From Tachypleus tridentatus (taxonomy: Eukaryota; Arthropoda; Merostomata; Xiphosura; Limulidae): a stretch of 64,000 bases of DNA. Where the stretch lies: NCBI RefSeq assembly GCF_004210375.1, contig NC_134834.1, forward strand, positions 90,028,170 to 90,092,169, given 5' to 3'. The notes beneath the pieces are model-generated. The model worked only from the letters and a program-made list of their open reading frames with translations, was not told the DNA's origin and did no database searches. Below are positions 8,032 through 63,265 of the stretch, piece by piece; position 1 is the stretch's first letter, and each line of letters begins with the position of its first letter. A program made the translations under genes and the position numbers.

Positions 8032-8640
8032 GTGGTCTTTGCAAATTACTTATACTTATTGTCTAAGATTTGTTTTATTGTTTGTTTTAATTTCGCGCAA
8101 GGCATAAGAGGGTTATCTGCGCTATCTATAAGACTAGAGGGAAGGCAGCTTGTCATGACCACCAACTGCCAACTCTTAGACCACTTTTCACCAACGATTA
8201 CTAACTTTATAAGGCCCCCACAGCTTAAAGGGCGAGCATGTTTGTTACAGCTTGGATTCGAACCCGTGATCCTCAGTATTTGGTAATGAATTTGATATAC
8301 ATGTGTTTACGTTATCAAATATATTAGAATCAGCTTACTGCTAGTTATATAATTAACAAAAAATAGATATGCTACATCAGAAAAAGATAAACAATTTATT
8401 ATTATTAATTAAAAACAAATAAATAAAAACATCGAAACATAAAGAGTAAAGTAGCCCGTTTTCCATTTTGAAGGATTCTCTCGTCATACACAAATACCTT
8501 TCAGGAAATACAATAAAACCTAAAGATATCAAAAAAATACTTTCCTATTATATGAATTTTTTTGAGGTATAATTGTTATTACTGTAAACGCTGTAAGGCC
8601 TGGTATTTGTGAAAGGTATAACTTATCAGTTTTCTTCTGT
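8032..8640. repeat. Duplicated block C, copy 1 (partner 32.9-33.5 kb)
   Basis: This segment aligns directly with about 32,935-33,510. It begins with a shared degenerate SINE, then shows the common strings TCAAATATATT, CTGCTAGTTATATAATTAA and AGTAGCCCGTTT. Similarity fades after about 8640. It lies just upstream of the first receptor gene, whereas the partner lies downstream of the second, so the duplicated units have been rearranged. Confidence 0.7.
8087..8283 (-). repeat. tRNA-Thr-type SINE, degenerate
   Basis: A decayed copy of the SINE seen best at 38,833-39,114, here reversed. It has the tail (AATTTCGCGCAAGG), the body (AGACTAGAGGGAAGGCAGCT, then GCCAACTCTTAGACC) and a truncated tRNA-like head with the B-box GATTCGAACCCGTGA. 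The head ends after the T-arm region, so the 5' terminus is lost. The same insertion is present in block C copy 2, so it predates that duplication. Confidence 0.8.
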
Positions 8641-10489: not shown

Positions 10490-12955
10490 TTTATTTATAT
10501 ATGCGTTCACGAAATATCTCTAGACTGAATGAATAAAAAACAATTAGAAATACTTAATAGAAATTTTATGTATTTCAATTACATTAAACAGTGTTTTCAT
10601 ATATACACAATTTAAATCCGTAACGATTAACGAGAAGTCAGATTTTGAGCAACGCTTATTTTTTCTTACATGCAATTTGAATTGCCTGTGAAAATGTTTT
10701 TCACATAATTTTTGTGTGTTAATTGCTTCTTGACAAAACAAATATTTTCAAAATGAGAGACTCCGTTAAAAATAGCACACTTCTTAGCAAGAATTAATTG
10801 ATTTTGAACTTGGATCCCATCTATTTTCTGGACTGTGAAAGCTTTGTGGTTCAGACGTACGACACGCATCGTTCGTGTCACGAGTTAGAATTCCTTTGAA
10901 CGAATAGGCTTGTAATATTTTGACCTATGGGCTTTCTTTTATGTTGATCAGTTCCACATTATAGTGTGTAACTTATAATTTGCATTAACTGGTGTTAACG
11001 AGCTGCTTTCGTTTGAGTTAGTAGTCATTGCTAAATTGGTTGGAGCAGGTAGCCTTGGTGTAGTTTTGTATAGAAGCATGGATGTGCATGTACATTAGTA
11101 TGGGTTAACGAAAGGGACACATAAATACATTATGTCCATCTGGTGTACATGTGATAATGCACTGCCTGCTCATCAAAATAAGGACCATTTATTTTACATG
11201 TAAATTTAAAATAATGAGTGTGTTACACACATTACTTATTAGTTACATTATCTTTGATTTTGTACTTGGATCTTAAAAGTTGTATTACGTTTGGTGTCTA
11301 TTAGAAATAGTCAAACGAAGAAATACCTAAAATCATGTATTTTATAATTAAATTGACATAGTTCACAGTTTTCACTGTGCATAAATTTTGTTGTTAACAA
11401 ACTAACGTTAAAGCCATTTTTACATTACGTTTCGCTACCAGTTGTAAGAGTGGTTCATTTTATTCCTCTACTAAAATCTTTTCCCAACTATATTCATAAA
11501 TCTTTGTCAGAGATGACAGTGTATTTAAACAAAACTTTAAAACACATGTACGTAAAAAAGGAAATTGGTGAATAATTCGAAATATATCCATAAGAAATAG
11601 AACCACTGTAATTAGAAATGAAGGTGTATCTTAAAGTAAAATTTCTTGGTTGAAAAATTCACTATGAACCAATGCAATCTTCTCTGTCAACTAATTTTCT
11701 ACGAATGGTTTAATCTATACAACGTTATGATTTTAGAACTATCATATATTTGTAAATTTTTTATGTTACACATTATTCATTGAATCCTTAAAATAAGAAT
11801 AATTTTATTATTAGTTTTTTTTTCATATTTACTTTATATATACTACAGTGTAATTACTAAATGTTTTAAGAGAAAGGTTTTATAGTAAATTGTGCACGTT
11901 ATACAGCTCTTCTGAAACTTATTACCTATGAATGTATGCATTTTTACTGTTTTCACTGCTATACTGTAACAACAACAAAGAATTATATTTTTTAACATAA
12001 GGACCAAGAAGCAACTATCAGTGTGTATATAGACAGATATATACAGTAGACATTATTTACTTTCTAATCCTTTGATCTGACCACATAGAAAGATCCGACA
12101 TGAAACAGCTGTCAGTCTACCGTGAATTTGACCGATATATGGAAAGCCAGTTAAACAACGTGAAGGTATAAAACATTTAATGAGTGTTTCAAAGTGAGAC
12201 ATAATGTTCGATTGTGTTCGGAAGTTTTTGACTAAGAAGTATAAAAGAATATGTGTGTACAGCAGTACCGATTTTGTATTGATTGTATGGAATGAAGAAA
12301 GTTAATCATCAGTAATAAATCCAACATTTATATGACAATTTCTGGGTATTATCTACACTCTCAAAGTGCAATCTGAATTTCAAAATGTTGAGCGTATTTG
12401 TTACTTTCTATCTGAAATGAACCACTAATCGCGTATCCTCGAATTTACAGTTCAATCACTCTCACCACCAGACAACACCAGAAAAGTGCTCACGTAAAAA
12501 TATTGCTAGTTTCTACAAATTTTAGTATGTAAGTTCCCATAGTTTGTAATTTGAAACAATTCTTAATGTTCGAATTTATTTGAAATAGATAAATGTTTTG
12601 ACTTGTTAATTAGCAATAGATTTCAGAGATCTGAAATGAATTTGTGACTGTCACACAAAAGCGGCTTTAAAGAGAGAAATAAAAATTATTTTACCACCTA
12701 AAATTTAATTTTTGTATTTAAATTTACAGGAGAAAAGTAAATTACTTGAAACCAAATATTTGTGTTGGAAAGAAGTAATAACACCATTTATTGCTTCATT
12801 GAAAATAATTTAACCTCCATTCATCTGTAATATTACAATTCTTTCCTTGAAGTCGATATTGAAGTAAATAAAGGATAAATTAATTGATTTCATTGTTGAG
12901 TAGTTTACTGACTTTAATTTCTCTATAACATCACATGACCTGTATGAATATTTGT
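10490..12955. other. 3' flank of receptor gene; no gene seen
   Basis: AT-rich sequence. An AATAAA at about 10,533 lies 50 bp past the receptor stop and could serve as a polyadenylation signal. The string TTGATTTTG(A/T)ACTTGGATC occurs at about 10,799 and 11,254, and a relative (TTGATTTTGTACTTGAGA) at 31,774 follows the second receptor. These are the only hints of shared downstream sequence. No coding region is supported. Confidence 0.4.
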
Positions 12956-12959
12956 GTCT

Positions 12960-13225
12960 TGGTTTGTTTCTCAATTTCTTCCAAAGCTACACGAGTACAA
13001 TGTGCGCTATCCCTCCATATTTTATTTCTGTAATACTACAGCGAAAGCAACAAGTGATCAACACACACAGCCAACTCTTGCGCTGCTATTTTACAAACTA
13101 ATAGTGAAACTAAACATCACATTGTAATTCTTCCACGGCTGAAAAAAGTTACAAATTGTTCGTGTGGTGGGGATTCGAACCCGCTATCCCCATATTTCGA
13201 GTCGAACACCTGAGTTATATATACA
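12960..13225 (-). repeat. tRNA-Thr-type SINE, old copy
   Basis: A strongly diverged reversed SINE. It retains GCCAACTCTTG, CCACGGCTGAAA and the B-box GGGGATTCGAACCCGC, followed by a decayed tRNA head (TCGAGTCGAACACC). The tail side (CAAAGCTACACGAG) is present at about 12,984. It is the most decayed of the copies here. Confidence 0.7.
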
Positions 13226-24169: not shown

Positions 24170-24339
24170 TATTTTGCTATTCTCAATTAATTTAAGTACC
24201 GGAAGGCTATGATCGGGATGCCAATTTAGAAACATGTGTTTCTGTCCATAAGAGGTTCCATGTGTAAATAAATTCTATGTTTTTTCTACTTTGCTATTTT
24301 CGTGAGAATAATTTTTGTTTTGATTTCAGGGCTAGTAAA

Positions 24340-26127: not shown

Positions 26128-26290
26128 AATGATCACTCATGCAAAAATATAAAATATTATTGCTTGCATTTTGAGAATTTTTTTTTAATTTATTGTGCAT
26201 GTACACGAATAAGCTTGTTTTTTAAGTTGCCCCGCTTGATTAATGAAGTTGGTTATATGGCCCACCGACGAAAAATGTTGCACACCCCTG

Positions 26291-29252: not shown

Positions 29253-29270
29253 TTTGCATTCAATTCGTAT
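29253..29270. repeat. Right target-site duplication of the LINE
   Basis: TTTGCATTCAATTCGTAT, matching 21,341-21,357 apart from one A. It marks the end of the LINE. Confidence 0.75.
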
Positions 29271-32216: not shown

Positions 32217-32227
32217 GGTTAAATAAG

Positions 32228-32594
32228 TTTGTTTTTGGAATTTCGCACAAAGCTACTCGAGGGCTATCTGTGCTAGCCGTCCCTAATTTAGCAGTGTAAG
32301 ACTAGAGGGAAGGCAGCTAGTCATCACCACCCACCGCCAACTCTTGGGTTACTCTTTTACCAACGAATAGTGTGATTGACAGTTACATTATAACGCTCCC
32401 ACGGCTGAAAGGGCAAGCATGTTTAGAGCGACGAGGATTCGAACCCGCGACCCTCGGATTACGAGTCGCACGCCTTACGCGCTAGGCCATGCCAGGCCTC
32501 CAAAGGCGAGCATGTTTTGGTGCGACAGGGATGCGAACCCACAACCCTCGGATTACGAGTCGAATGCCTTATCAACTAGGCTTTGCCGGGCCTA
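32228..32594 (-). repeat. Double-headed tRNA-Thr-type SINE with target-site duplication
   Basis: Read on the minus strand it starts with one tRNA-like head (32,594 to about 32,500, with B-box GGTTCGCATCCCTGTC). A second complete head follows (32,499 to about 32,425, with GGTTCGAATCC), then the usual body (CTAGAGGGAAGGCAGCTAG in plus text) and the tail with GTGCGAAATTCC. An 11-bp repeat GGTTAAATAAG flanks the whole at 32,217-32,227 and 32,595-32,605. The dimer therefore appears to have been inserted as one unit. Confidence 0.85.
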
Positions 32595-32934
32595 GGTTAA
32601 ATAAGAACACCCTTATCTTAAGTTTTCGTTGTTTTTTAAAGTTACGCATATCAATCACACAGATTACTTCTCACAAAATATTTATCCATAAGTGTGTGTT
32701 TCAGTATATTACAACGACGAACACCCGTGATACTGCTTAGTTTTTACAGAAGTGTGAACTTTGGATAATGAAAAGTATCCTTTAAAATACAAAACCTTTT
32801 AAGTTTGTGAGTCTTGTTTTCGAACACCAAATAAAGACAAATAATTTTTATTTTATTTCCACTTTCATAAGAAAATGAGATTTGGCTGCTAGTATTTTTA
32901 TCAATAGATATATATATGAAAAAAATAAAAATGT

Positions 32935-33172
32935 TTGTTTGTTTGTTGAATTTCGCGCAAACCTACACAAGGGCCATCTCCGATAGCCGTTCCTAATTTA
33001 GCAGCGTAAGACTAGAGGGAGAGCAGCTAGTTATTACTACCCAACTACAATTCTTGGGCTAATATTTTACCAACGAATAGTAGGATTGAACGTCACATTA
33101 TGTCGTCCCCATAGTTGAAAGGGCGAGCATGTTTGGTACGACTTGGATTCGAGGCCGTGACCCTCGGAATTC
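32935..33172 (-). repeat. tRNA-Thr-type SINE, degenerate (in block C copy 2)
   Basis: It has the tail GAATTTCGCGCAAACC, the body AGACTAGAGGGAGAGCAGCTAG and B-box GATTCGAGGCCGTGACC, and breaks at CTCGG before the tRNA 5' half. The same break point occurs at 8,280, confirming shared ancestry with that copy. Confidence 0.85.
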
Positions 33173-34794: not shown

Positions 34795-37020
34795 AACTCT
34801 TGCATTGACTGACACAATGTAGGCCTCCGCACCTGACAAACCAATGTGTGGTTTTGAAGGCTTCATGGGTGTGGCACATCGCTGGCTGTTAAGACGTTAC
34901 GACTGCTAGATAGGATTTATCGATTTCGAAGGGGTATTTTTTGTGATCCACAGGGTAACACCGTTGGTCAGTAGACTCTTAGCTTATTATGAATCCTGTA
35001 ATGACAACTTCATTAGAGTGGATTCCATACCTGTTTTGTAAGATTTCATCATTTCTATCTTGATAGGTTTAATTCGTCTTCAGATAATACCAAGTGTGAT
35101 TCCTTTGATGATGATTGATGTTCTTTACTGTGGGGCTCCTGGAACGTTGTTTGAAATTTTGCTTCAGTTAAAGGCATATGACGGCGAGGATTTGAGAAGT
35201 ACTGGGTGGTGTTATGGCTAATTGGATTTGACGACTGTCTCCCCCCATTGGTAGACTCCTAGTTTCGGGGAATTGGATTTCATGGAAACATGTTTAATGT
35301 CCAAGGCGTTTAACGGTTGATGGAAGTTGGCGGGTAGTCCTTCGATTATAATTATGGTGGAATTAACTGGGTTGTTTGCTTTGGTGAATTTGGTACGTGA
35401 ATTGGTTATTTTACTCTGTGGTTGATGTTTTACCTGAGAGATAAACTTAATTAGATACCTTACCTTTGTTCACTACCTTCGTTAGTGGTTGAATAAGGGT
35501 ATTTCGTACAGTTGTGGAGAAAGTTAGCTGGATGTAGATATAGATTTGACTGCGTTGTCAAATTCGTAGCAGTATCCGGAGAGCTTCCGTAGACCGCTTT
35601 CGATACGGTCCGGCGTAAAATGGCAAGTCGTTGCGGCGAAGTGAGGATAGGTCCTGATGGACGTGTCATTGGCGAATACTGTTTTTCTTCTTTATGACGA
35701 ATGTGTGTGTTGGAATGTTTAGCTCTGTTAAAAATTGTTCTTGATAGGTCGATATAAAATCTTAAATATGAGATAAAGAAAGTCTTACCTATCTTTTACC
35801 TCTTATCTGTGAATGAATACAATACAATATCAGTAAATACCAAGTTCAAAATATTGATCAATACCAGTCAAATGAGTCCATTCTAAATAGAAGTCTCTGA
35901 CGTTGGTTCTGCCATACATAAAGTCTCTTTGAGTTTTAGAATCATTCAGGAGAGACATTGAGTCCGTACATTCATGTGACATTAGAAGTCTGCTAACTGA
36001 ATGAAAAATGTATGTCATTGCAATTGACAAAGCACAAATAACTCACTATACAGACTTGTTCTTAACAACAACGACACAAAAAACAAATATAGGGTTTTTA
36101 AAGAATAATTATAAATATTTTGAAAGCTATAATTGAAATTCTAGTTTAATTTGCTGACCTTCTTGTACTGTTTTAAAACTGGTTTATAAAGTGTTTTTAA
36201 ATTCATTAAAATTCGCATACTTCTCTAACATGTCGTATAACGTGTAATTAGTAAAACAGATAAATACTTTTCATTTTTATCAACTTGGCAACTAATAAGT
36301 CATTATTGTGCATTTATTATCAAAATAACCAAACTCTGTTATATATAACAGCGAGAGTCCTATATCCACAGTCACCTCCAAGACAAAGAGTACAATTTAT
36401 ATCCCACGTTTTAGCTTGTACCCTGGTTTCCTTTCAATTAGTGTACAGTTTTTATTTTTGTTTCGGGTTCTTTTTGGTTATAACAAACTTATATAATTAT
36501 TCAGGTCATGATTTGCTGTTTTTAACGCAGTCCTACCTTTTGATTTTGTTTTAATTTACTTATCAGTTTTAATATTCTCTTAAAGTACACACTTGTCTCT
36601 ATGTTGTCTTTAATAACTAAGTTTGTGATCAAAATGATTTATAGACATATATTTCATTAGTCGACATTACACTGTAAAACATGCCAAATAAAATATACTA
36701 ACAAACATTTGTGCTGAAAGTATCGCCTACTTGGTAAACATTTTAAGCAAACTCTCTCATATAAACGTACTAAAATCTAATCAATATTCATACAGAAACT
36801 AACGTATTACTAGCAACAGGTATTTTATAAAGTATATTGTTATCACGAAGAGTATTTTTTGCAATTTTAATATTTTGTAAGACTCCGTTAAATGCTTTAT
36901 TTTAATTTTAACTTTTATATATTTTAATTTTTTTCTGTTATTCTAATTAATCGAAATATAAAATATTTTGTTGTTTATAAATAAATTGAGGAAATGTTGA
37001 TTGTTTCTCAAACCTTTATT
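34795..37020. repeat. Duplicated block A, copy 2
   Basis: Direct copy of 2,640-5,560, shorter through two deletions (or insertions in the partner). Similarity runs from GCATTGACTGACACAATG at the left to CTCAAACCTTTATT at the right, after which the two diverge completely. Confidence 0.7.
34800..35740 (-). pseudogene. Relic of non-LTR retrotransposon ORF1, copy 2
   Basis: Minus-strand ORF1 relic. It keeps a segment lost in copy 1. At about 35,385-35,220 it reads without stops as NSTIIIIEGLPANF and then SPKLGVYQWGETVVKSN, which resembles the start of a gag/PRE_C2HC-type RNA-binding domain. The N-terminal SPQRLAILRRTVSKAV segment is shared with copy 1. The zinc-knuckle segment is decayed (GLSGAEAYIVS where copy 1 has MFGGIHHVS). 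A perfect acceptor-like TTTTTAACAG lies at the upstream edge of the N-terminal segment; it may be chance. Confidence 0.5.
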
Positions 37021-38600
37021 TATGACAACCTTATAACATTTAAATCTGTCTCTGTCCAGAGTAACAGTTTCTGAGAGTTTGGATATATAACTTTTAACAA
37101 AATTTGAAATATTCATGTGCTTACAAATGTTTAACGTAATCACTCCAGTAACATGTTTCAAGTGTAAATAATAAATGTAATACATTGTGAAATAATAATT
37201 TGCTCTCACAACAGATACAAATACCTACAATATGCAATTAACCAATATGACACATCAATTTTGAAACACTTAAGTTCTAATTATGATTATGTTGCTAAGT
37301 TCTACATGTTTAACATACAAATACCACTGACTTTACTTTCCTCTATACTCTGTGTAGATTAAATACACTTGTGTTAGGTATAACCTTAAAATTACAACAC
37401 ATGACATATAGAATAATTTGTTGTATTTTACAGAATTTTTGCTACATTTTATAAAACGTTTATCAGCTCATAACATATACATTACTGACCTTTGTTTGTA
37501 CAGTTTTAAGGCCTGCATATAGTCTCAAAATATAAACCATGGGTGGTTTCAGACAGCTTATTCATGAAGAGAGATACAGAAATCGAATATCCTGCAGCAA
37601 AATAAAAAGAATGAAAGATGAAATCCCACAACTCACTTATCTTCTAATTCCATATTTGTTGCTTATTTATGATACATTTTGATAATCTTTAAGTACATTC
37701 ATTATGTGAAATATTCTATTCTAATAGAAAAGTTCAAAACAAAATGTTTCTATAATAAAAATAATAAACTGGGATAACATATGGGTTGATATGGTTTTAC
37801 AACAGTTAGTTTTTGTCTGATATACTATAGTACCAGAATTTACAGAGAAAGCAGTAAAACTATTACATGAAACACATAATATATTGATATACATTTTAAT
37901 TTTTATTTGATAAAAAATTAAGGGCCAAAGTGCACAAATTTAAAATAACTGTCTGCCTCCATAAAAATTTAATAACTAGCAATGTTTTCCAAATGTCTTT
38001 ATGCATTACATATATATAAACATACATACATATAAACACACACATACATATATACATACACATCCATTCATTCTTATAAATAATTAAAATTTAACAATAG
38101 ATAGCTAGTTAGACATGGTATTTGACACAGAGAAAAGCAACTGAGTATTTATTTGCTATACTACACAATAAAAGCTAGTGACCTACTTTTCAGGTTTATA
38201 TGGCTATTGCTTTTGAAATTCTTTATTATATATCCTTTCTATTCAAGTAGGGTGATACTGTCTGGTTTCAAGATTAAAATATGTCAAAAAGTAGTGAGTG
38301 GCAATTATACATTGTGAGTCTTCAAGATTTGGTCGTCAAATGAAAAAAAATTAAACTACTGGTGTTGACTGGGCATGAAAATTAGTTGATAAATGTTAGC
38401 TTTATTTGTTTAATAAATATACAGACATATACATATATATTGCTAAGCTAGAGATTACACATACAGGACCAGCATGAAAGTAGGTTAGTTGTAATAATTG
38501 AAAACTCTTGGCATGGCTTTTAACACAGAGTACAGACTTCATACTTTACAGTTTTAAGTGCAGTGTTAGTATAAGTTTATAAAACTTATGAACTACACCA
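37021..38600. other. No gene seen; (CATA)n-rich microsatellite
   Basis: AT-rich intergenic sequence. A CATA/CA-rich tract lies at about 38,008-38,066. No coding region is supported. Confidence 0.45.
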
Positions 38601-38608
38601 TCAAATAA

Positions 38609-38661
38609 TGGTTGGTTCGTTGATTTGGTATCTTATGGCACAAAGCAGCTGGCCTATCTGA
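38609..38661 (-). other. LINE 3' tail resembling the SINE tails
   Basis: On the minus strand it contains CAGATAGGCC, GCTTTGTGCCATAAGA and ACCAAATCAACGAACC in order. The SINE tail at 39,050-39,110 has CAGATAGCCC, GCTTTGTGCGAAATT and CCAAAACCAAAC. The second SINE family has CAGATAGCC and a TATAAGAAAAC-like stretch. The order and spacing suggest a shared recognition tail. Confidence 0.55.
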
Positions 38662-38832
38662 TGAAAAGTTAAAGTAAATTTAGTAAAATTCATAAAAGGA
38701 AATTAAGGTAAAACAAAACAAAGTTTAAAAAACACATAAATATCATAAAACCAATGTTTACATCTAGTCTACAAAATCAAGAGAAACCTACAGTAATTCA
38801 AGTTGTAAAGGACGTTCTATAGCGTGACTGTA

Positions 38833-39114
38833 GGCCCGGCATGGCCAAGCGTGTTAAGGCGTGCGACTCGTAATCTGAGGGTCGCGGGTTCGCATCCCGG
38901 TCGCGCCAAACATGCTCGCCCTTTCAGTCGTGGGGCGTTATAATGTTACGGTCAATCCCACTATTCGTTGGTAAAAGAGTAGCCCAAGAGTTGACGGTGG
39001 GTGTTGATGACTAGCTGCCTTCCCTCTAGTCTTACAGTGCTAAATTAAAGACGGCTAGCACAGATAGCCCTGGGTAGCTTTGTGCGAAATTCCAAAACCA
39101 AACAAAAACAAACA
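38833..39114 (+). repeat. tRNA-Thr-type SINE, best-preserved copy, with 12-bp target duplication
   Basis: The head GGCCCGGCATGGCCAAGCG begins a tRNA-like unit with anticodon-loop CTCGTAA (Thr-CGT-like) and B-box GGTTCGCATCC. The body follows (CAAACATGCTCGCCCTTTC, then CTGCCTTCCCTCTAG) and an A-rich tail. AGCGTGACTGTA is duplicated exactly at 38,821-38,832 and 39,115-39,126. The acceptor stem pairs poorly, so this is a SINE head and not a tRNA gene. It sits inside the 3' UTR of the LINE. Confidence 0.95.
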
Positions 39115-39129
39115 AGCGTGACTGTAATA

Positions 39130-39395
39130 ATCATAACTCACCAGGAAGACTAATAGGTAAGTGCAAAAACCATTGTCAGTCACTTGAAGTTGGCCTTTCC
39201 AGTCCAGATTCAGAGTTATTTGACGTTATGGCTATTTTCAAACAGTAAAGTAGTAAAAGTTTTAAAAACTTGTAGTAAAATTTTAATAAGAACTCGCAAG
39301 GATGACTAGTGGGTAGTTCAAACAGCAGCGTTAGTCACCTGAAGTTGTCCTTTCCAGTCCTAGTTTCGAGTTATTTCATGTTATGGCCATTTTGT
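39130..39395 (-). repeat. Direct repeat in the LINE 3' UTR
   Basis: Two tandem units of about 160-170 bp. Each contains AGTCAC(T/C)TGAAGTTG, CCTTTCCAGTCC, GAGTTATTT and GTTATGGC(T/C)ATTTT (about 39,178 and 39,334). They lie between the SINE insertion and the end of LINE coding sequence. Confidence 0.75.
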
Positions 39396-39479
39396 AATTT
39401 CAAATCGAACTAGATGGACTGCAATTCTTAAAGTGTAATCACATTAAAAAGGTCTAATATATAAATTAAAAACTGAACT

Positions 39480-40760
39480 GGAATTAAAAAGATTAATGGC
39501 CTTTAAAAAATTAAAAACATTTCCAAGGTGGACAGTGTCATCATCACCAATAACACTGTCTAACATTATGGACAAACCTTAGGAGATAACATGTTTAAAA
39601 TGGTTTTGTCGTTGAGAGTCGTCACAACAGCAAGAAAGTAGAATGTGGCTTAGCGTGACCTAAGTGTAACACAGAGTAAATATTGGTGCATCAGTTCCAG
39701 ATAAAAGAAAATGATGAGTTAAAAAGCCGTGACGAATGTATAGTCTAGGTAGAACAACTTCCTCTTTCTGATCTTTACAGAAGCAAGATGGCCAAAGTTC
39801 AATATAGGGTTTTATTTAGAAAAGCTTTTTTTCACGTTGCTCACTCCAAGTCGACTGCTAGCTGGCACAGAGCCGAGCCTTGAATACAGGACCATAGTCC
39901 ATGTATGGAACAGTCACAGCAGTGACAATGCCAAAGCAGATAGATTTAGCTGCGATGTTGGCAAGCTCATTCCTGCGAATAGCAACGTGGCCTGGTATCC
40001 AGAACTGGATAGAAGTAGATGTTAAAGAGAAATGGGCCAGTCAGTTTTGAATATCGGCGAGAAAATGGTATGAACTGACATTAAACGATTCCAGAGCCAG
40101 TAGAGAACTAAGCGAGTCAGTCTAAATAGCGCAGTTTGAGTACTGCTTAGATTCTATGTGATCCAGGGCAAGAGAAATGAAATACAGTTCAGCAGTGAAA
40201 CACAGAAGCTGTAGAGGGGATTCTGTGCACAACCACCGAATCTCAACAAGCCATGAGAGAGTCCACAGTGTCACCTGATCTTGAACAATCCATATAAATA
40301 GGAATTGAAGGAAGATTCGAAAGATGTTCAGCAAATAATACATAGTATTTCCAATCGAGAGTATCTGCTTTTCTCAGATGACTTAAAGTTAGGTCACATT
40401 TGGAAACTGTAAGAAGCCATGGTGGGATGGGCCTACCAGTGGATACAGCAATGTTATCCAAGGACAGACCGAATTCATCTAACTACACCTGAATAGGAAA
40501 ACCAAAAGGACCAATGGCAGATCATCTATTCTGAAAAGTATGGCCTACTGAGGAATGAAAACACAGCCCCAGGTGGAATGCTTTGGTAAGGAACGAAGAT
40601 TTGAAGCATATAGTAAAGACAGTTGCAAACAGGAGAGGTGCAAATAAGGTTCATGAGACTCTATGTATAAGCTCTGATCTGGTAAATTGCAGAAAGCCCC
40701 AGTGCAGAGTCGAGGTCCTCGATGATTAATGGAGTCCAGCATCTTTTAAGGCCAAGGTCC
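39480..40760 (-). pseudogene. LINE ORF2 C-terminus: RNase H and terminal extension
   Basis: Minus-strand fragments. The segment LDSINHRGPRLCTGAF, then SLYIESHEPYL and LRSLPKHS (40,545-40,740), follows the RT thumb in RNase H-type LINEs. The RNase H core has IYMDCSRSGD (about 40,290; functional enzymes have D-G-S), ELYFISLALDHIE with the catalytic Glu (about 40,180), and WIPGHVAIRRNELA (about 39,990) matching W-x-P-G-H-x-x-I-x-x-N-E-x-A. A terminal segment VIGDDDTVHLG (about 39,540) matches the C-terminal extension of such ORF2s. The DG to DC change and many stops show it is dead. Confidence 0.75.
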
Positions 40761-41039
40761 TGGCAGAGCCATAGACTAGTGACTCATACTCGAGTTTTAA
40801 TTGAATAACAGCATTATATACCTTTAGCACAGAACATCGATTCACTCACCAAGTGGTGGAAGAGAGTACATGGAGGATGTTCAGTGCTCTTGTAGATTTG
40901 ACTCGTAGCTGCTTGATGTGTGGTAAAAAGGTCAGCTTATGGTCAAAGTTAAACCCTAAGAACTTGTTCTCAGGGACCACAGGCAGCACAACTTCACCGA
41001 TACGGAGTTCAGGATCAGGGTGAATACTCCATTGGTGAC

Positions 41040-41900
41040 AAAAGTTCGTGCAAATGGTTTTAGAGAGAGAGAGAGAAGTTAAAACCGTTTACTGTGGTCT
41101 ACTTCAATAAATGATTGAAGGCAGTCTGTAGCTGCTGCTCAATATACCTTATGTTTGACAACTGACATGAGATGTAAAAGTCGTCAACATAGATCCCATT
41201 TGCAATAGTGAGAAAGAGTTGTTCAGTGATGGCATTAATCTTTATACTCAAAAGTGTGACACTCAAAGCACAGTTCTGAGGGACTCCAACTTCCTGTAGA
41301 AAATAACTGGGAAGTGTCGAACCCACACACTCTTTGAATCTCTTGTCTATTAAAAAGTTCTTAATAAAAATGGGTAAATAGCCACGTAACCCACATATAT
41401 ACGAAGGTCTCACAAAATGCCATACCTCCATGTTATGTCATAAGCCTTCTCAATGTCAATGATTATTGATACAAGATGTTGTCGTTTGAAAAAGGCTTCT
41501 CTGATTGACGTTTCAAGTCAAATCAGTTGATCCACAGTGGAGAGCTATCATCGGAACTCACACTGGGTGGGCAAAAGGGGGTTCATTCGAAGAACCAAAC
41601 ATGACGAGCATTAACTATCCTCTCTAAGATCTTACATAGACAGCTTATCAAAGCAATTGCATGGCTGTTTGAAGGAATCTTGGGATTCTTCCCAGGCTTA
41701 GAGAAAGGTACTAAAATAGCCTGGAGCCATGCATCAGGAAAAACATTCTCCTGCCAGATCCCGTTAAAAACAATCAGAAGAATAGGAAGAGAAGCAGGAG
41801 ATAGATGGCACAGCATTTCATAGTGTACATCATCAGGTCCAACCAATGTACTGCTAGACTGATGAAGGGCCAAAGTGAGTTTCACCAGTATAATGGAATG
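41040..41900 (-). pseudogene. LINE ORF2 reverse transcriptase, broken
   Basis: The fingers region (41,583-41,885) reads VGPDDVHYEMLCHL, then PDAWLQAILVPFSKPGKNP and ISCLCKILERIV, matching RT motifs 1-2a. The palm (41,099-41,431) has GVPQNCALSVTLLSIKIN (functional: G-V-P-Q-G-S-V-L-S-P) and YVDDF, which retains the catalytic Asp pair. Between them the frame is lost and about 60 codons are garbled. Not functional. Confidence 0.8.
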
Positions 41901-42099
41901 AGTATTGTCACAGAGATAATCAGCTCAAAAGGAAATAGGTGATCGCTCTGCCCAAGTCATCTTACCCACCGAGCATGTGTACAGGCCTGCTGGAATGCGA
42001 TGCGGTTTGAGGGTTTGAGATATCTACAGAAAGTATCTCCGGTCTGTTTTTGAGCCTTCTATGCCATGTGGCAGACAGGATTCTACCACGGATGAGGAT

Positions 42100-42945
42100 A
42101 TCGTGGTAGTATGTCTAGGTTTTAGGAATACATTGGGTATTTGTCTGTATAATACAGTCAGTTACTGTTGCCACACAGTTATCTATTGATGGCTTACAGA
42201 TGATGACAGGATCATGTTCAGCAAGAGCAGTGAAAGAGGGCCAGTTTGGGTAATCCAGCTTCCACCGTGGTACGTGAGTCAAATGGCATCGACTACAGCC
42301 AGTTTCTCTCAAACTTATGGAAAAATAATCACTGCCTCTTGAATTATTGTCAACACTCCATGAAAATGGGAGAAAAGTGAAGGGGAGCAAACTGACAGAT
42401 CAATAGCAGTAAAGGACTGACTAGGTGCATGAAAATAAGTAAAAGAACCAGTATTGAAAAGAGAAAGGTTGTGATCAGAGAGCATAAAATTTACAGAGTG
42501 ACCCCTCTTATCAATATCAGCACTTCCCCAGAGGGGATGATGTCTATTAAAGTCCCCCAGGATGAAAAAGGGAGACGGCAAGCAACTGTTCAATGAGAAC
42601 ATCAACATCTGATTGATCATGGCTCTCCAAGCAACAGGTAGAGAGAATAAACAGTAATGGTATGACTCAAGGAAACACATATGGCTATGGCCTCTAAGGG
42701 TGTGTCGAGTGGCATAGACAGAGTGGTACATGCTGATCAACCAACAGTGCCAATCCTCTTTACACTCTTCCATCACTCAGCCTGTCATTTCTGTACAAAG
42801 AAAACTGCCGAATGATGACTATCAGCAGGTTTCAGAAATGTTTCCTGTAAGAAAAGACATACAGGATGATTGGAAGCAATTAGTGTTTTGATGTCATCCA
42901 AATTAGAACATAAACCTCAACAGTTCCATATTATCAAAATGGCCA
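42100..42945 (-). pseudogene. LINE ORF2 EEP endonuclease, broken
   Basis: It starts at an ATG near 42,945 (MAILIIWNC, cf. L-Q-W-N-C), followed by NLDDIKTLIAS and LFLQETFL with the catalytic Glu. Then come FFILGDFNRHHPLWG (Asp and Asn, about 42,555) and a C-terminal part ending near 42,115. Shifts and stops intervene, including near 42,780. It precedes the RT at 41.0-41.9 kb in the expected order. Confidence 0.8.
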
Positions 42946-43429
42946 TTTTTACTTACATGTAGGTAAATTGGGTGAAGAACACTTCTGTTTATGACCATGT
43001 TTTTTCTTTACTGTCTTTATTCGAGGGAGATCTATCGACCTACATGAACCCTGCGCTGGGTCGAATTAGCAGGTCTTTGCTGTTGGAAGTGGATTCCAGT
43101 GACTGAGGACGACGAATGATTGTTTTGCATCTTGGGGTGGGAGAAGAAGATGTATCAGAGGAAATGCCTGTAACTGAAACCAAAGAAAATGGATCTTAGG
43201 ATTTGATGGAATGTATATAAGGGACAGAGATAAGTGTTAAAGTTGATTCATCAACGTTTTTCACCACGGAGGTCAAAAGACTTTTCATTTATTTTGAGAA
43301 CAATTCTTTTGGAGGCACAGAGAGATCCGTCTGCACTCTCACAATAGTAGCGGAAAAACGTGCAGCAACATACGTCCAAGATGAAGTGGTGGACAGCAAC
43401 TTTTGAACCACAGGATAAGTAATGTTATG

Positions 43430-44210
43430 AATGGTTTTAAATGCTGCACCTCTTTTTCCAACCATTTAGGGCAAGAACGAAAGTAGGATGGGTGAAATCC
43501 ATTGCAATTGTCGCAGTGAGGGTCCGTTTCAAACTCATAGGCATCATGGTCCTTGCTACCACAACAAGCACATGTCAGGGAACCACGACATGACGATTTT
43601 TAGTGGCTGAACCGCTGACACTGAAAACAAAGAGGGTTTGGAATGTATGGCCGTACCCTGCAATTGAGATAAGCTGCCTTTGTGATGGTAGGTGGACGTG
43701 GTGATGTAAATGTCAGAATTAGGATATTGGTCCGTATCGTAATTTCTTCTTTGTGAGTGGAGATACAACTCACTGCAGTAACTCCTTGAGTGGAGAAACC
43801 AGCAAGAATCTCTGACAGGGGATGTTACTCAAATCCCTCTCAACAATAACTCCTTGTGATGAATTCAAAGCAGCATGAGGTGTAACCTCAATAGGTATAT
43901 CCCCAATCACCTTTGAATGCAAGAGAAGTTCACTGTGTTGAGATGTGGATGTTTCCACTAATATGTCACCAGATTGAAGCTTCTTTCCTAACTTTGGAGA
44001 GACGGCAAGTCTCTCTAGTCTCTTCTGAATGAAAAATGGAGACATCTCCCCCTGAGGGTTTGTTTGAAAAAGACTGTAGTATAAGAAAATGAGGTACAAC
44101 AGGTGTTACAGATGTTGAAGATTGCTGTTCAGAATCATCAAGACGTGGTCGTTTACCTATGGACTGTTTTTCACCATTGTTTAAAGTTTTTATATGGAGG
44201 ATCCATTATA
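43430..44210 (-). pseudogene. LINE ORF1: gag-like RNA-binding protein with three CCHC knuckles
   Basis: The N-terminus has a basic GKRPRLDDSEQQS segment (about 44,150). A gag-like RNA-binding domain follows (43,770-44,050: SPKLGKKLQSGDILVET, then VIGDIPIEVTPHAALNSS). After a frame change come CCHC knuckles reading CFQCQRFSH (a stop replaces one residue), CACCGSKDHDAYEC-like and CDNCNGFHPSYFRSC (43,480-43,620). Order and spacing match ORF1 of I/Loa/Jockey-type LINEs. Confidence 0.8.
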
Positions 44211-44650
44211 AAAAAAATATTTCGGAGCCCACTGTCCCCACCCACCATGGAGTCCTAGAAGGGGATGCACTACAGTGTCAAACAAGGACACTGCAGCAAT
44301 GCCAGGGTTTCATGAGCTCTATACCCAAACACCAGCATCAGATACAATGTCCACAACACCTGTTGAGAACATCCAACAATGGAACTTGGTTGACTCTAAC
44401 CCAAGTGGACTAGCCGACTGACCCAAGGGGGGTCACCCAAAGGCTTCCCGTCTACAGGAATTCAATGCCAAAGTGGTGTGTTAGGTTTGGACCCCTGAAC
44501 CACGAGGATACTCTCCTCCCTTTCACGGGTTGTCATGCATGGCAAATACGTGGATGAATATTTAGATCTTAGAGGAGATAAACTGATAGAACAGAACCTT
44601 CCCTGAAAGGTCCCCTCACCATGTGCAGGAATCAACACTGAGGGGTTTTA
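44211..44650 (-). promoter_or_regulatory. LINE 5' UTR
   Basis: About 440 bp between ORF1 and the presumed 5' end, GC-richer than the flank (CCTTTCACGGGTTG, GGTCCCCTCACCATGTGC). It stops abruptly at about 44,650, where AT-rich DNA begins. Confidence 0.5.
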
Positions 44651-46530
44651 AGTTGAAATTCATGAATAGCTGAACTATCAAAAGATATTCATCAAATTAA
44701 AGACTTAACATGGTATGCAATTTTTCCTACCATTCTCTTGTCCTAATTATAATTCAATGTGTAAAAGCAAAGATAAGTTAATAAATGAAACAAATTTGGA
44801 CAAGCGTAAGATGATTTAACTTTTTTCTAATCTTCACAAATGGCTTTTTTTTTCTAACTTTCTAATTTTATTCTATCAAAATAAAATGTAAAATAAGTTA
44901 TTCCTTAATGTTTAAAAAATTATCCTAGTAATAAACTGATAAAATTATCATAAAGAAGTAACCCCTTATTCTTTAGATAAAAAATACAGTGACAAGATTA
45001 CCATAAATTTATCTTAGAAACATTAATTAGAAATAATTTAATTAGAAACACTGCTTTAGCTCTTATTCATTTCAAACTTCATTTGTTCTGCATTTTATTT
45101 AGATGTTATCAGTATATAAAGGAAAAACTTAGAAGAAAAAAGAAAGAAAGAAACTGTTAATATTTAAAATAAAGATATATAAGAATATTATAAATAGCAA
45201 ATTCTATACTGTATACAGTGATTTTAAGAACCTTTTGAATCAACCAATAAAATTTCTATTTTGTGGAATAAGCAACATTATAGTAGAGATTATAGCCAAT
45301 TAAAGAATGCATTAGGCCTGTATATCACAACTGTTTTTTTCAATTTAACTTCTAGTGGAAAAGAGATGTTTAACACATATATACAAATAAAATATCTATC
45401 ACTACAATTTACGTCAAATAATAAAGAAATTAATAGCAAAAAACAATCACTGCAATTGTTCTAACTCTTTAGAAAGCTGTAATTTCTTTAAACATAAATA
45501 TATATTTTAATTTTGTTTATACAGTCTCTGTTCGTAAGCTCAGTTTGATTCTAGATGAAATCGACCACAATGATATGAAGAAATGATATAACAAATTACT
45601 GTTAAAAATGAAAAGATGTTTTATGTAAAAAAATGTACAGTGTTGAGATGTAGCTCTGAAAAAAATGTCTAAAATTACTGTATTTGTTTTTTTTTCTAAA
45701 ACTTTTTCTGTTAATGATTTAATATGGAGATTAATTCCACCATACCAAAGTTAACAAGAAACAACAACAAAAAATTTTAAAGAACACAAGAGTTACATAA
45801 TTAAGTCATGAGGGTAATATAATCACAAGTATATTTCAAGATAATACGTTTGAGTTATTACCTACAGTTGTTCAGAAAGTTTGTACTAAATTACTTTTAG
45901 GTATACTGATGGAGCTGTGATTAAATTTGTATTTAACTTTACTTTTATTTGATAAATACCAAGTATATGATCTGTGACAAATATAAGCAAAAACAATTCT
46001 ATTACTGTTGTTAACTTCTAATTATACTTTAGGAAAAATATTAAGAAACAAAATTTTATAACTGGTAGTGAAAAGTTTACCCAATACGATCTATGAAAAC
46101 ATCATGTTAGAAATTGGGCTACAAACCTTATTATAAAGTGTAGTCCAATCCTTACACTTAAAACACGCTGTTCGACATGGAATTTCACATACAAAATAGA
46201 TGGCGTTACAAATTAAACCTAATAATGAATAAAACTCGCTTTATTAACAAGTTATTACATAAATATTAATACATTTGTTTATATATATAATAACAAAAGA
46301 GATATAAGTTAGAAAGAGGATTAAGTAGTTGTATTTTTTAATACATTGAATATTTAAAACAATTTGAAAACAACGCCAAATAATGCCAGAGAGTTAAGAT
46401 CTTAACATTAGGCTTTACATAATATGCAAGTAAAGTTAGTATATAAACCTATTTAAAATGAATGAAAAATAACTCAATGGTGTTAAAATCAAGTCTCAAT
46501 CAAATTATTAAAAACACTTATTATTAGAAC
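44651..46530. other. No gene seen
   Basis: AT-rich intergenic sequence with poly-purine and poly-T tracts. I find no coding or RNA feature. Confidence 0.45.
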
Positions 46531-46664
46531 ACTTCCTTCCAGTTACTTGTTATTTATAGTGTAGAACACTTCCTTCCAGTTACTTGTTAGTTATAGTGTA
46601 GAACACTTCCTTCCAGTTACTTGTTAGTTAGATTGTAGAACTCTTTCTTCCAGTCACTTGTTAG

Positions 46665-46820
46665 TTGTTTTCCTAGTTGCTTAATGCGAGCCCCACGCTA
46701 GTACTACGGTATGTCTACGGATTTACAACGCCAAAATCAGGTGTTCGATTTCCCTCGGTGTGCAGAGCAGACAGCTTGATGTAACTTTGCTGTAAGAAAA
46801 CAAACACAAACGCTTTATGC
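46665..46820 (+). repeat. Second SINE family, copy inside minisatellite
   Basis: A tRNA-derived unit with CTAGTACTACGGTATGTCTA, an A-box-like stretch, B-box-like GGTGTTCGATTTCCCTCGG, then CAGACAGCTTGATGTAACTTT and an A-rich tail. Its left edge joins a minisatellite unit. Confidence 0.8.
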
Positions 46821-47519
46821 GAAAAATGTATAACTCATTCTTTCAGTTACTTCACATGCAGAGTGTAGAACTCCTCCTTTTGGTTACTTCTCAGTTGGAG
46901 TGTAGAATTCTTCCTTACAGTTACTTGTTGGTTAGAGTGTAGAACTCCTCCTTCTGGTTACTTATGAGTTGAAGTGTAGAACTCTTCCTTCCTGTAACTT
47001 GTTGGTTAGAGTGTAGAACTCTTTCTTTCAGTTACTTCACATGCAGAGTGTAGAACTCTTCCTTATAGCTACTTCACACGCATCGTGTAGAATTCTTACT
47101 TCTAATCATCTCAAATGCTTAGTACAGAACTCTTCCTTCCAGTTACTTTACACACAGAGTGCAGAACTCTTCTCTCCATTTACTTCATACGAAAACAATA
47201 GAACTCTTTCTTTCAGTTACTTCTTGATTAAAAAGTGGAACTCATCCATCCATTTGCTTCATGCAAATATTGTATAACTCTTATAGTTACTTGTTAGTTA
47301 GGGTGTAGAACTCTTCCTTCCAGTAACTTGGACATTAGAATGTAGATCTCTTCCTTCCAGTTACTTGTTGGTTAGAGTGTAGAATTCTTTCTTTCAGTTA
47401 CATCACATGTAGAGTACAGAACTCCTCCTTCTGGTTACTTGTTAGTTAGAGTGTAGAACTCTTTCTTTCAGTTTCTTCACATGCAGAGCGCAGAACTCCT
47501 CCTTCCAGTTACTTGTTAG

Positions 47520-47680
47520 TTTGTTTTTTTCTAGTTGCTTCATGCGAGCACCCTGCTAGTACTACGGTATGTCTACGAATTTACAACGCTAAAATCAGGT
47601 GTTCGACTCCCCTCGGTGTTCTTAGCAGATAGCCTAATGTTGCTTTCCTATAAAAACAACACACAAACGCTTCGTGCAAA
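47520..47680 (+). repeat. Second SINE family, second copy inside minisatellite
   Basis: Nearly the same as the copy at 46,665-46,820, with the same left junction (TTTTTCTAGTTGCTTCATGCG versus TTTTCCTAGTTGCTTAATGCG). It therefore probably arose by duplication of a larger array block, not by a second insertion. B-box: GGTGTTCGACTCCCCTCGG. Confidence 0.8.
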
Positions 47681-52669: not shown

Positions 52670-52920
52670 TATGTAGACCGAGGAATATCTGCGCTAGTTG
52701 TCCCTAATTTAACTGTAAGACTAGAGGGAAGGCAGCTAATCATCACCACCCACCGCCAACTCTTGGGCTACTCTTTTATCAACGAAAAGTGGAGTTGACC
52801 ACACTTTATAACGTTTCCACTGCTGAAAAGGTGAGCATATTAGGTGTGACGGGGATTCGAACCCGTGACCCTAAGATTATGAGTCTAGTACCTTAACCAC
52901 CTGGCGATGCCGGTACTATA
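52670..52920 (-). repeat. tRNA-Thr-type SINE
   Basis: Reversed SINE with body AAGACTAGAGGGAAGGCAGC, GCCAACTCTTGGGCTACTC, B-box GGGATTCGAACCCGTGACC and a complete but diverged head ending TGGCGATGCCGGTACT. The tail is truncated at about 52,670. Confidence 0.9.
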
Positions 52921-57801: not shown

Positions 57802-58059
57802 TTGGTTTATTACGAAGTAGTGTACCCTGATGTTGCATACAAGTACATTATACACCACGAACACTAGGTAATTCTTATGGAACCTTAAATACGTAGTAAA
57901 GTCTTTAAACACAATCAAGTGTTGTTTACAATAGGTGTATTTAATTGTTTGTAAGAATATGCTTATATACCTTCAATATTTACTAAGAAATGTTGCTGTA
58001 AAAGTATAGCCTTAGAAACAAAGATGCCTCTCACTTGCTCAGCGGAAGGTTTTTTAAGA

Positions 58060-58160
58060 TTATAACTCTAAAAACTGTGTTTTGATATCTGTGGTGGGCA
58101 CAGCACAAATAGCTTATTGTGTAGTTTTATGTTTAACAACAATAACAAAAAAAGACCAAG
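58060..58160 (+). repeat. SINE 3' part, third type
   Basis: TTTGATATCTGTGGTGGGCA, then CAGCACAAATAGC, TTGTGTAGTTTTATG and an A/C-rich tail. It has the layout (degenerate B-box, GTGGTGGGC, CAGCACA-ATAGC, tail) of the tails of the other SINEs here. The head is lost. Confidence 0.5.
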
Positions 58161-58604
58161 ATTGAATGAGTTAAACTTTGTTTTGTTTGTAAAATAATGT
58201 TAAATGTTGATGATGTTTTCAGACTTCCATTTATTTCTTCATAAGTTTAATAATCAGTTGAGATTAGTGGTTCTACTTTGTTCTTTTAGAGTAAATACAC
58301 GCACGTCGCTGTACCTTCAGGAATCTTTAGTGTTTTGTCAATAGTAGCAAGTATTACAGTCTACTCTATACTTGAAACATTTAACAGCCAATTTCCTTAT
58401 ATAATACTGGAGATAAAAGGACCAGAAGGGCTTCTTATCTCGATTTGTAAGTAAACCATAACAGTGACATGATGAAAAATTAAAAAATAATTTTAAAAGA
58501 ATTAAGGAAAAAAAAATTTTTTTTCTACTTTGTGAATTGAGAATAATTTTTGTCAAGGTCACGTTTTACTTCCGATATCCAGTTCTAGAACATGTGATAA
58601 TTTT

Positions 58605-60294: not shown

Positions 60295-60545
60295 ATTATA
60301 TACCAGACCATAGATCTGAGATTCTGTGGTTCGAGCCCCACTTCTATTTCACTTACAGCAAATTTAATGGGAAAAAAATGTACCATGTATTTCTACAGGG
60401 TTGGTGCTAAACACCATTATCGAGTTAGAGTGGCCCATAGGGTGGTGTTGGATTGTTTTTTCCTCCCTTCATTCTATAATTTCAAAATTAGGAACAGCAA
60501 GAAAACATAGCTCTGAGCAGCTTTAGGGGAAGTTCAATAAGCAAC
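60295..60545 (+). repeat. tRNA-derived SINE with a different head and the common tail
   Basis: The B-box-like GTGGTTCGAGCCCCACTTC (60,329) gives a tRNA-type head, a different body follows (GTGGCCCATAGGGTGGTG), and then the tail AATTAGGAACAGC, ATAGCTCTGAGCAGCTTTAG, GAAGTTCAA. The tail matches, with mutations, the tRNA-Thr SINE tail (AATTAAAGACGGC, ATAGCCCTGGGTAGCTTTG, GAAATTCCA). It is a chimera or sister family. Confidence 0.55.
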
Positions 60546-62534
60546 AAACGGAGAACACATCATTGTCAATTATATGAATAGTAAACTATTGCTGCTATAT
60601 ACAAATAAAAACTGAAAACAGAAATATCGTAATTTGGGTAAAAAGAAATCTTAATGTACTGGTAAACAACTTTTCTTTTTATCTTGGTTAACGTCATTCC
60701 TTTTTGTCTCTCTATCCTTAAATAGAACGCTACACATATCCTTGTAAATGGCTATGTGAGATAGTGGTTTCCATCATACAGTATTATAAATAACAAGTTC
60801 ATCAAAAAGAATCAGTTACATATTTCAAAAGAAGAAATAGATGTTTTTGAACATTAGTTTAATATTTTGTATAATTATTCACTGGGTGTTGAAACAAGTC
60901 AACTAAACACCCAGAACTGTAATTTTATGAGATGTCAAAAGAATTGTTAAAAGCATTTTATGTGTTTATTTTAAAAATGGTTTGTTAAGTTTCTTATGTT
61001 TTAAAAATCCTGAATAAACTCGTGAATATTTTTAACCACAGAACAGTTGAGGTTGTAGTAATAGTTACAACCGTAATTAATCTAATGTAACAATAAATTT
61101 TTTACAATCCATAAGTTGTAATGTATAAACTAACATTGAAACTTAAAACAGGTATTTGAACATTTAAATATTTAACAGAACTAGTTTTATTGTTAAATGA
61201 TGTTAAATAAATTAATACTTAACCTGTGAGAAAATAATAAATATTTGGTTATTTTTATATTACACATGTAAGTTTCTAAAACATACTAAGCACACTTGTG
61301 CTCAAATTCATAAAACATGAGCATGTGTTATGTAACTCAAAGGTTTAATGGTTTTCTTACATTCAGCAAAACTATACATTTATGTTAGAAATATAAGTAC
61401 AAGTTGTATGTGTTGACCACGAATGTCAGCTGGAACAAACATGAATATATTACGTTATTATACACATCATACCCATTACAGCTGTATACTTTAGTATTTC
61501 AGGTCATGAACATCACTTGATACCTTATGCAAGAATGTGTAGTGTCAAGGAAAGCAGATTTACACACACTATTCAGTATGCAAGCTGTGTACAGTGTAAG
61601 GTTTAACAATTTTCAGAAGTGGATAGTGTACGAGTACTCCTGACAAGCCACACAGCAAGTACAGTAGTTGCATATGTTTAGGTCTGTTTTCATCACAAAG
61701 GTTGTGTTTAATACACATGCATTATGTATAATATTGTAATAGATGAGGTCATATGAAGTATTACTTACAGAAGTATTGATCATGAACTATATAAATAATC
61801 AGTGTTTAATATTAATTATTTTTACCATACTATAACAGATCAGAAGTTTCTTTAAAGTTCACTTTTTAGTATTTGTTGCCATTTAAATAAATCTTGAAGA
61901 GCAAGTATAATAGAAACAATGACAACTGACAGTAATAAATATTCTCACAAGGAGCAGAATTAAATTAATTAATTTGAAAAGAATACAATAGAATTACCTA
62001 CAACTTGTTAACGAGTTGTGTTATTAATAAATTAATCTTAATCAATGAAAGAAATCACTGTAAGTCTATCAAGTTTCTCATCAGTATCATAAATATTAAT
62101 ATTAACAGTTTTAAGTTTATTTCTCTGTACTTCTGTATCATGATGATTCAAACATCTATAAGACAAAAAATAGTTCATGGTGAATATTGTATCTGTTTGA
62201 GGTTCACACAAGTAGTGGTTTTTACTGTTTTAGGTTACTGATGATGTCATGATCAGAATATTATTTTTGGGAGCAGTTTGGTGAAATATAAATATTGTGA
62301 TGAATAAAAATGAAGTTAATAATTTGTATTATGTAAGGCAAGACTCATTTGATAGTTATGTAGTAAAGTATGATGACCAAATAAATAGGTTACAAGGTAT
62401 GAAATGTTTTATGTATATTATTTATTTTAGTAACTGTATATATACTTGTATATCAATGTGACATATTTTATATGACACTTTAATACTTTATTAATCTTCA
62501 GTTCCACATGTTTTATTGTGAATCTTGTTGACTT
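60546..62534. other. No gene seen
   Basis: AT-rich intergenic DNA. Short frames have no recognisable content. Confidence 0.4.
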
Positions 62535-63265
62535 ATTTAGTACCAGTTCTATTTATCAGTCTTTTCACCTAATGTAGTACCAGTTCTCTTTATTAGTCTT
62601 TTCATCTAATTCTTCTTTATCAGTCTTTTCATCTAATGTTGTACCAATTCTCTTTATCAGTCTTTTCATCTAATGTAGTACCAGTTCTCTTTATAAGTCT
62701 TTTCATCTAATGTTGCACCAGTTCTCTTTATCAGTCTTTTCATCTAATGTAGTACCAGTTCTCTTTATCAGTCTTTTCACCTAATGTAGTACCAGTTCTC
62801 TTTATCAGTCTTTTCATCTAATGTAGTACCAGTTCTCTTTATAAGTCTTTTCATCTAATGTAGTACCAGTTCTCTTTATCATTCTTTTCACCTAATGTAG
62901 TACCAGTTCTCTTTATCATTCTTTTCACCTAATGTAGTACCAGTTCTCTTTATTAGTCTTTTCTCCTAATGTTGTACCATCTTTCATTATTAGTCTTTTC
63001 ACCTAATGTGTTCCCCGTTAGTACAGTGGTAAGTATAAAGATCTGCAATGCTAAGATCAGAGGTTTGATTCCCTTCAGTTGATTCAGCAGATGGCCCGAT
63101 GGTGGCCTTACTAAATGAAAACACACACACACACCAGTTTTCTTGATCAATCTGTTAACCTACTTTTCACTAATTTCTCTATCAGTTTTGTCTATTGATA
63201 CAGTATTAAGTTTTTATCACTCTTTTTGCCTACTCATTACCAGGTTTTTATTATGCTGTTTTAAA
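62535..63265. repeat. Second 37-bp-period minisatellite
   Basis: About 12 well-kept units containing AGTACCAGTTCTCTTTATCA, then GTCTTTTCA(C/T)CTAATGT (62,540-63,008). A SINE follows, then a few degraded units (ACCAGTTTTCTTGATCAATC, CTCTATCAGTTTTG) to about 63,260. The SINE therefore interrupts the array. Confidence 0.9.
63008..63136 (+). repeat. Second SINE family, copy inside the second minisatellite
   Basis: TTAGTACAGTGGTAAGTATA, then CTGCAATGCTAAGATCAGAG, B-box-like GGTTTGATTCCCTTCAG, GCAGATGGCCCGATGG and an ACACAC tail. Same family as 46,665 and 47,520. Confidence 0.8.

Follow-up and report, generated by a model that had tools for sequence, protein, structure and literature searches.

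The window, by which we mean the whole 64,000-nt stretch analysed, contains a decayed LINE with a SINE nested in its 3' UTR, together with other SINE copies of families A, C and D. Tails were scored with two covariance models, R1, trained on SINE tails only, and R2, trained on 16 LINE ends only. The features are listed below with the evidence for each.

38607..44689, minus strand: LINE, full-length but decayed (parts: ORF1, endonuclease, reverse transcriptase, 3' UTR, tail)
38607..38668, minus strand: 3' tail of this LINE, 5' arm of the hairpin gone (alignment against 38 other copies; R2 16.7 bits, E 0.43)
38833..39114, plus strand: SINE A in the LINE 3' UTR, with tRNA-like head, body and tail (12-bp target-site repeat AGCGTGACTGTA; genome-wide copies)
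39052..39091, plus strand: tail hairpin of the nested SINE A (R1 48.0 bits, the copy being in the training set; R2 20.3 bits)
32227..32499, minus strand: SINE A copy, tail hairpin at 32239-32279 (sequence repeats, R1)
32934..33168, minus strand: SINE A copy, older (sequence repeats, R1)
8069..8276, minus strand: SINE A copy, older, with a GCGC stem (sequence repeats, R1)
12951..13211, minus strand: SINE A copy, older (sequence repeats, R1)
52677..52913, minus strand: SINE A copy, truncated tail (tRNA-like head, 24.9 bits in Rfam, below cut-off)
58017..58165, plus strand: SINE C, tRNA-like head fused straight to the tail (R1)
46692..46806, plus strand: SINE D copy (R1)
47551..47664, plus strand: SINE D copy (R1)
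63012..63127, plus strand: SINE D copy (family D alignment)
60427..60556, plus strand: SINE-like element B with a decayed A-type tail, the chimera of the sequence-only reading (pairwise score, R1)

The LINE is bounded by an 8-bp target-site repeat, CATCAAAT (38599-38606 and 44690-44697), which its 3' end at 38607 directly adjoins. Its endonuclease matched Pfam Exo_endo_phos_2 above the cut-off (4.6e-13, 42318-42776) and its reverse transcriptase matched RVT_1 under the curated cut-off (0.0015, 41102-41437), while a CCHC-type (zinc-knuckle-like) ORF1 and RNase-H-like motifs were recognised by eye only, with no Pfam match for RNase H in the decayed pieces of the element. On these traits (CCHC ORF1, endonuclease, reverse transcriptase and, by eye, RNase-H-like motifs) the LINE looks I-like to us. 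Its 3' UTR also holds two diverged repeats of about 111 nt, 80% identical and with a period of about 155 nt (39128..39393, minus strand). On contig C10 of the same assembly (G000), the LINE-with-SINE locus recurs in inverted orientation at 99% (C10:90160408-90160915) and its LINE end at 97% (C10:89825538-89825754), both about 0.3 Mb or less from the window copy, as local duplications.

A second LINE, on the plus strand at 21.5-29.3 kb, is split by an element at 23250-26290 whose termini are perfect inverted repeats of 14 bp, CAGGGGTGTGCAAC; it is flanked on either side by the 8-bp repeat GCATAGAG and contains transposase-like frames (hAT type by eye). This LINE was rejected as a source of the shared tail, its 3' region (28900-29800) scoring 15 against the SINE tail core, which is noise. 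The window further contains a DNA-transposon-like inverted repeat at 56238-57802 (156-nt arms, 93% complementary, 1253 nt apart), a block at 2663-5284 duplicated at 34802-36750 in pieces 81-89% identical, and two related long reading frames at 9120-10112 and 30048-31367 (DNA pieces 74% identical), which are candidate chemoreceptor (gustatory receptor) genes by their look.

For the SINEs, the copy at 38833-39114 is a clean insertion lying 226 nt from the LINE end. Next to the copy at 32227 is a further tRNA-like head (32502-32594), and the whole of 32227-32594 lies between the copies of an 11-bp repeat, GGTTAAATAAG (32217 / 32595); it looks like a single insertion with a doubled head. Clear target-site repeats (12 and 11 bp) were thus found in two of the seven window copies tested; in the remaining five, all older, no repeat exceeded 7 bp. 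SINE D has three copies in the window (46692, 47551 and 63012), and all of them lie inside or at the edge of 37-bp satellite arrays (46477-48499 and 62540-63057), as though satellite and SINE D were linked. The head of SINE D is related to that of SINE C and its tail ends in ..GCAGATAGCCCGATGTGGCTTTGCTATAAGAAAACAC, whereas the head and body of SINE A are unlike those of C and D; the tail is common to all. The Rfam tRNA model scored 24.9 and 22.8 bits on two SINE copies (cut-off 29), A and B boxes were seen by eye, and ARAGORN reported no tRNA.

The abundance of these families was estimated from twenty 10-kb stretches spread over the genome (200 kb), which together with the window yielded 58 A/C-seeded tails. 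Of the 200,000 bases sampled, 17,431 (8.7%) belonged to SINEs A, C and D, as did 2,310 of the 64,000 in the window, and the sample held 57 A matches and 48 C/D matches; for the SINE A profile, 10 of 43 rows were excluded as old or rearranged, and several of the 33 kept are the same copy under two locus identifiers. At two loci (L018 and L026) the alignment, judged by eye, places SINE A copies directly against the tails of other SINEs, and SINE tails may therefore serve as insertion targets. The window SINEs have both the target-site repeats and the high copy number of tRNA-derived SINEs.

The sequence-only reading had proposed that the LINE end and the tail of the nested SINE share a set of words in the same order. 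These words are where it placed them, CAGATAGGCC..GCTTTGTGC..CCAAA running from 38660 to 38624 in the LINE (minus strand) and CAGATAGCCC..GCTTTGTGC..CCAAA from 39061 to 39096 in the SINE (plus strand), with a modest excess over chance inside the window. When the LINE 3' end was compared with the 38.8-kb SINE tail, 74 and 100 of 10,000 dinucleotide shuffles scored as high; for the 32.2-kb SINE tail, 7 and 11 of 10,000 did. With the 58 SINE tails, 35, 2 and 8 of 5000 shuffled LINE ends reached the observed mean, top-five and maximum scores, as did 373, 69 and 71, respectively, of 12,103 other window stretches, many of them A/C-rich. In SINE-tail profile tests the window LINE end ranked about 44th of 5001 sequences and 251st of 10,001, and it was not among the R1 matches at E<=10 with filters off; a core-only scan of the window placed 11037-11078 one point above the LINE end, with an R1 score there of 20.9 bits. 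A 13-nt deletion in the window LINE copy takes out the 5' arm of the tail hairpin, and the match to SINE tails is therefore modest there; loss of this arm is also the likely reason for the weak profile HMM scores. Comparison of the whole SINE with the window LINE gave nothing beyond an unrelated 13-nt match of equal score. The tail of the 60.3-kb element, also named in the sequence-only reading, is real but decayed (score 42, R1 only 8.2 bits), and related tails occur in families C and D as well. Taken from the window alone, the LINE-SINE tail match is suggestive.

Other copies of the LINE were sought in the genome (2.17 Gb, 205 contigs) with its last 226 nt as query; this gave 1523 first-look candidates, of which 40 were scored. 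Two of the 40 were the window itself and its 99% duplicate, and the 3' ends of the remaining 38 LINE copies were aligned. Similarity among most of these copies fades shortly past CAACCAACCAACC, like true LINE ends. The 13 nt holding the 5' arm are also absent from L049, a near relative of the window copy, and part of the same segment is missing from L050, L058, L061 and L064; a relative in L046, 69-71% identical to the window LINE, had no recognised 3' end when followed. The consensus 3' end, built from 37 of the 38 further copies (the window copy and L049 excluded), reads TTTGGCACAGATAGCC-TAGCT-GCTTTGTGCCATAAAACACTAAATCAACCAACC. Its tail, GGCACAGA-TA-GCC-TAGCT-GC-TTTGTGCC, forms a hairpin of 8 + 2 pairs with a 6-nt loop, CTAGCT, and the terminal repeat (AACC)n. 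The LINE-tail pattern had 239 exact matches in the genome (reversed control, 0); the pattern also permitted the longer SINE loop, and all 100 of the 239 matches that were listed have the short loop (5-6 nt by pattern gap).

Comparing the LINE consensus with the SINE families, we found that its hairpin arms GCACAGATAGCC and GCTTTGTGC recur unchanged in young SINE A and in SINE C. Scores were 32 for young SINE A (0 of 10,000 shuffles), 26 for SINE C (9 of 10,000), 19 for SINE A overall (29 of 10,000) and 18 for SINE D (227 of 10,000, unconvincing alone). The 53 nt of the LINE just upstream of the tail scored 9-14, which is noise, versus 18-32 for the tail, and the LINE-SINE similarity is confined to the 3' end. 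The genome-wide consensus comparison that had been suggested as a check therefore bore out the proposal, with identity limited to the tail and far above chance; the opposite outcome, identity no greater than in shuffled sequences, failed to appear for SINEs A (0) and C (9/10,000), while SINE D was weak in this respect (227/10,000).

The two covariance models extended this result in both directions. Applied to the 38 LINE ends, R1 matched 30 at E<=1 and 18 at E<=0.01, all positioned at the hairpin, and 8 of the 38 escaped it. Applied to 264 kb, R2 gave 29 matches at E<=10, comprising 25 tails of SINEs A, C and D, the window LINE end, and three that were neither; ranks 1-12 were all SINE tails (assigned by coordinates), the best of them at only E 0.018-0.05. 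Because the consensus, R1 and R2 tests agree, common descent of the LINE and SINE tails is the sole reading that we find credible. Tail sharing exceeds chance by sequence for A and C, and by structure and model only for D.

A conserved stem-loop forms the shared tail, with 6-8 bp in the stem, then a bulge of two bases (UA), two G-C pairs and the loop; a short tandem repeat comes after it. Among the LINE ends by themselves, the eight outer pairs hold in 266 of 278 cells, and in a first count of the 58 SINE tails 420 of 478 cells were paired, versus 27-54% with slid partners, the stems having been read off the very sequences scored. For alignment A1, 29 well-preserved SINE tails (A, C and D) were chosen from the 58 A/C tails and the D copies; 92.3% of their cells are paired, versus 29-49% when slid, and double-change cells number 23, where shuffling gives a mean of 9.4 and 0 of 500 shuffles come up to 23. 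In A2, 17 of the 38 LINE copies, chosen for having both hairpin arms (16 of 38 in A3), were combined with 23 SINE tails picked from the same pool, likewise for good preservation, giving 92.1% paired cells and 31 double-change cells (0 of 500 shuffles). Three pairs change on both sides in the 29 SINE tails, and two do so repeatedly: C-G to A-U in 10 copies, a change unlike CpG decay that nevertheless splits D from A and C and is possibly one event, and G-C to A-U in 12, at a CpG, whose decay can look like compensation. The G-C / A-U pair association was found in family A (p = 0.0017) and was absent in C (14 copies, p = 1). Because the copies are related, the compensatory changes represent few events; they support the tail hairpin.

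The families differ in loop, 3' flank and repeat. SINE A has GAAATTC, then AAAC units; SINE C has TTAATTC, then AAC units; SINE D has CTATAAGAAAACAC; and the LINE has CATAAAACAC, then AACC units. The SINE loops measure 8-10 nt versus 6 nt in the LINE, and the terminal repeats differ also, so that the same loop and terminal repeat in SINE and LINE, the mark of an exact partner, were not found. In the zebrafish LINEs ZfL2-1 and ZfL2-2 the loop decides whether a tail is accepted, and the stem can be swapped (PMC4176376). Given this rule and the differing loops and repeat units, the window LINE is unlikely to be the exact partner of the SINEs. Of the original proposal, the sharing of a tail between LINE and SINEs is upheld, but a strict partner pair is not established.

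The explanation that we consider probable is that one hairpin-forming LINE tail gave rise to the last 45-60 nt both of the LINE family and of three or more SINE families (A, C and D), and that the SINEs move by presenting this hairpin, with the window LINE likelier a relative of the mobiliser. The observations behind it are the homology of the tails, its limitation to the tail, a structure in which changes compensate each other, and target-site repeats of the kind that retrotransposition leaves. Under this explanation, the LINE-encoded ORF2 protein would bind the tail hairpin on the RNA, reverse transcription would start on the terminal tandem repeat, and SINE RNAs would be mobilised by presenting the same hairpin as the LINE RNA; the hairpin is most likely the handle by which the SINEs borrow the LINE copying enzyme. 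Because loops and repeats differ, we favour a sister LINE lineage as the present mobiliser, to which the window LINE family would more likely be closely related than identical.

A narrower form of this explanation gives each SINE family a separate partner within one group of hairpin-bearing LINEs, of which the window LINE is one member. We give it an even chance, since loops, 3' flanks and repeats are family-specific in A, C, D and the LINE, but among 69 hairpins checked in the 200-kb sample (of 76 R1 matches) 63 have a SINE body upstream, and none has a recognisable LINE, including the six without a SINE body, which were inspected by eye. That no second hairpin-bearing LINE was recognised in the sample, by eye at these six of 69, counts in favour of the window LINE family as the direct partner, its ORF2 protein reading stem and UA bulge, tolerating the loops and moving A, C and D alike. 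The identity of the LINE consensus arms with those of SINEs A and C and the size of the LINE family (1523 first-look candidates, 40 scored; 239 exact tail matches) also speak for direct partnership, which we nevertheless think rather unlikely: loop and repeat unit differ, the short loop being present in all 100 listed of the 239 matches, and loop changes abolish or sharply cut the movement of ZfL2-1 and ZfL2-2 (PMC4176376).

That the likeness is a chance or compositional effect of A/C-rich ends might be argued from the modest match within the window alone and from the 373, 69 and 71 of 12,103 other window stretches that equal the LINE-end scores against the 58 SINE tails. Only 2-35 of 5000 shuffled LINE ends attain the observed scores, however, and for the LINE family R1, R2 and the consensus-shuffle tests, with consensus and covariance tests agreeing in both directions, refute chance similarity, which we hold to be very improbable. 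Scarcely any weight falls on the idea that conversion or transduction carried the tail of the nested SINE into the LINE end. The SINE does lie only 226 nt from that end, but fetched LINE copies elsewhere carry the tail and the window SINE is an insertion with its own target-site repeat, both of which contradict local conversion.

Tail borrowing is a known trick, and the LINE and SINE set described here are new members. Stringent LINEs bind the 3' stem-loop of their own RNA, and SINEs carry a copy of the tail (PMC3747384); Table 1 of that paper gives 58 SINE/LINE pairs, such as eel UnaSINE1/2-UnaL2 and salmonid HpaI-RSg-1, in which CR1/L2 and RTE LINEs predominate, and its only entry for Protostomes is the Gecko SINE with I-clade LINEs of Aedes aegypti. 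As in stringent pairs, the SINEs here are tRNA-like, match the LINE at the 3' end only and end in a stem-loop with a short terminal repeat; unlike in those pairs, the LINE has another loop and repeat unit than the SINEs, and one hairpin is common to three SINE families or more. The set resembles Gecko of Aedes aegypti in being a protostome SINE/LINE tail pair, and ZfL2-1/ZfL2-2 in that a 3' hairpin would be the recognised element, but the latter belong to the L2 clade with loop-determined specificity, and here the loops are not shared. Searches of open-licence literature for horseshoe crab, chelicerate and spider SINEs turned up no title or opening of an abstract that describes these elements.

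The UnaL2 LINE 3' element is an Rfam family, and it was absent from the 10 Rfam matches in the window at E<=10, which included no LINE-tail family and tRNA below the cut-off only. Exact patterns had no match in viral and bacterial collections, and of nine pattern matches to the LINE endonuclease in viral contigs none was confirmed.

The hairpin points to a large SINE load defined by a single tail, 8.7% of the 200-kb sample; by contrast, PMC7815833 states that SINEs account for little of the repeat content of two horseshoe crab genomes. Recognition that ignores the loop and reads only the stem and UA bulge, with one LINE family driving SINEs A, C and D, seems to us improbable; if true, it would constitute a third mode between the "stringent" (loop-specific) and "relaxed" (poly-A) modes, and would place one LINE family behind SINEs making up about 9% of the 200-kb sample. 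The set probably lies outside the CR1/L2 and RTE clades that dominate known pairs and, as it combines a single LINE family and a single hairpin with three or more SINE families and four loops, it is a natural set in which to test how LINE proteins choose their RNA.
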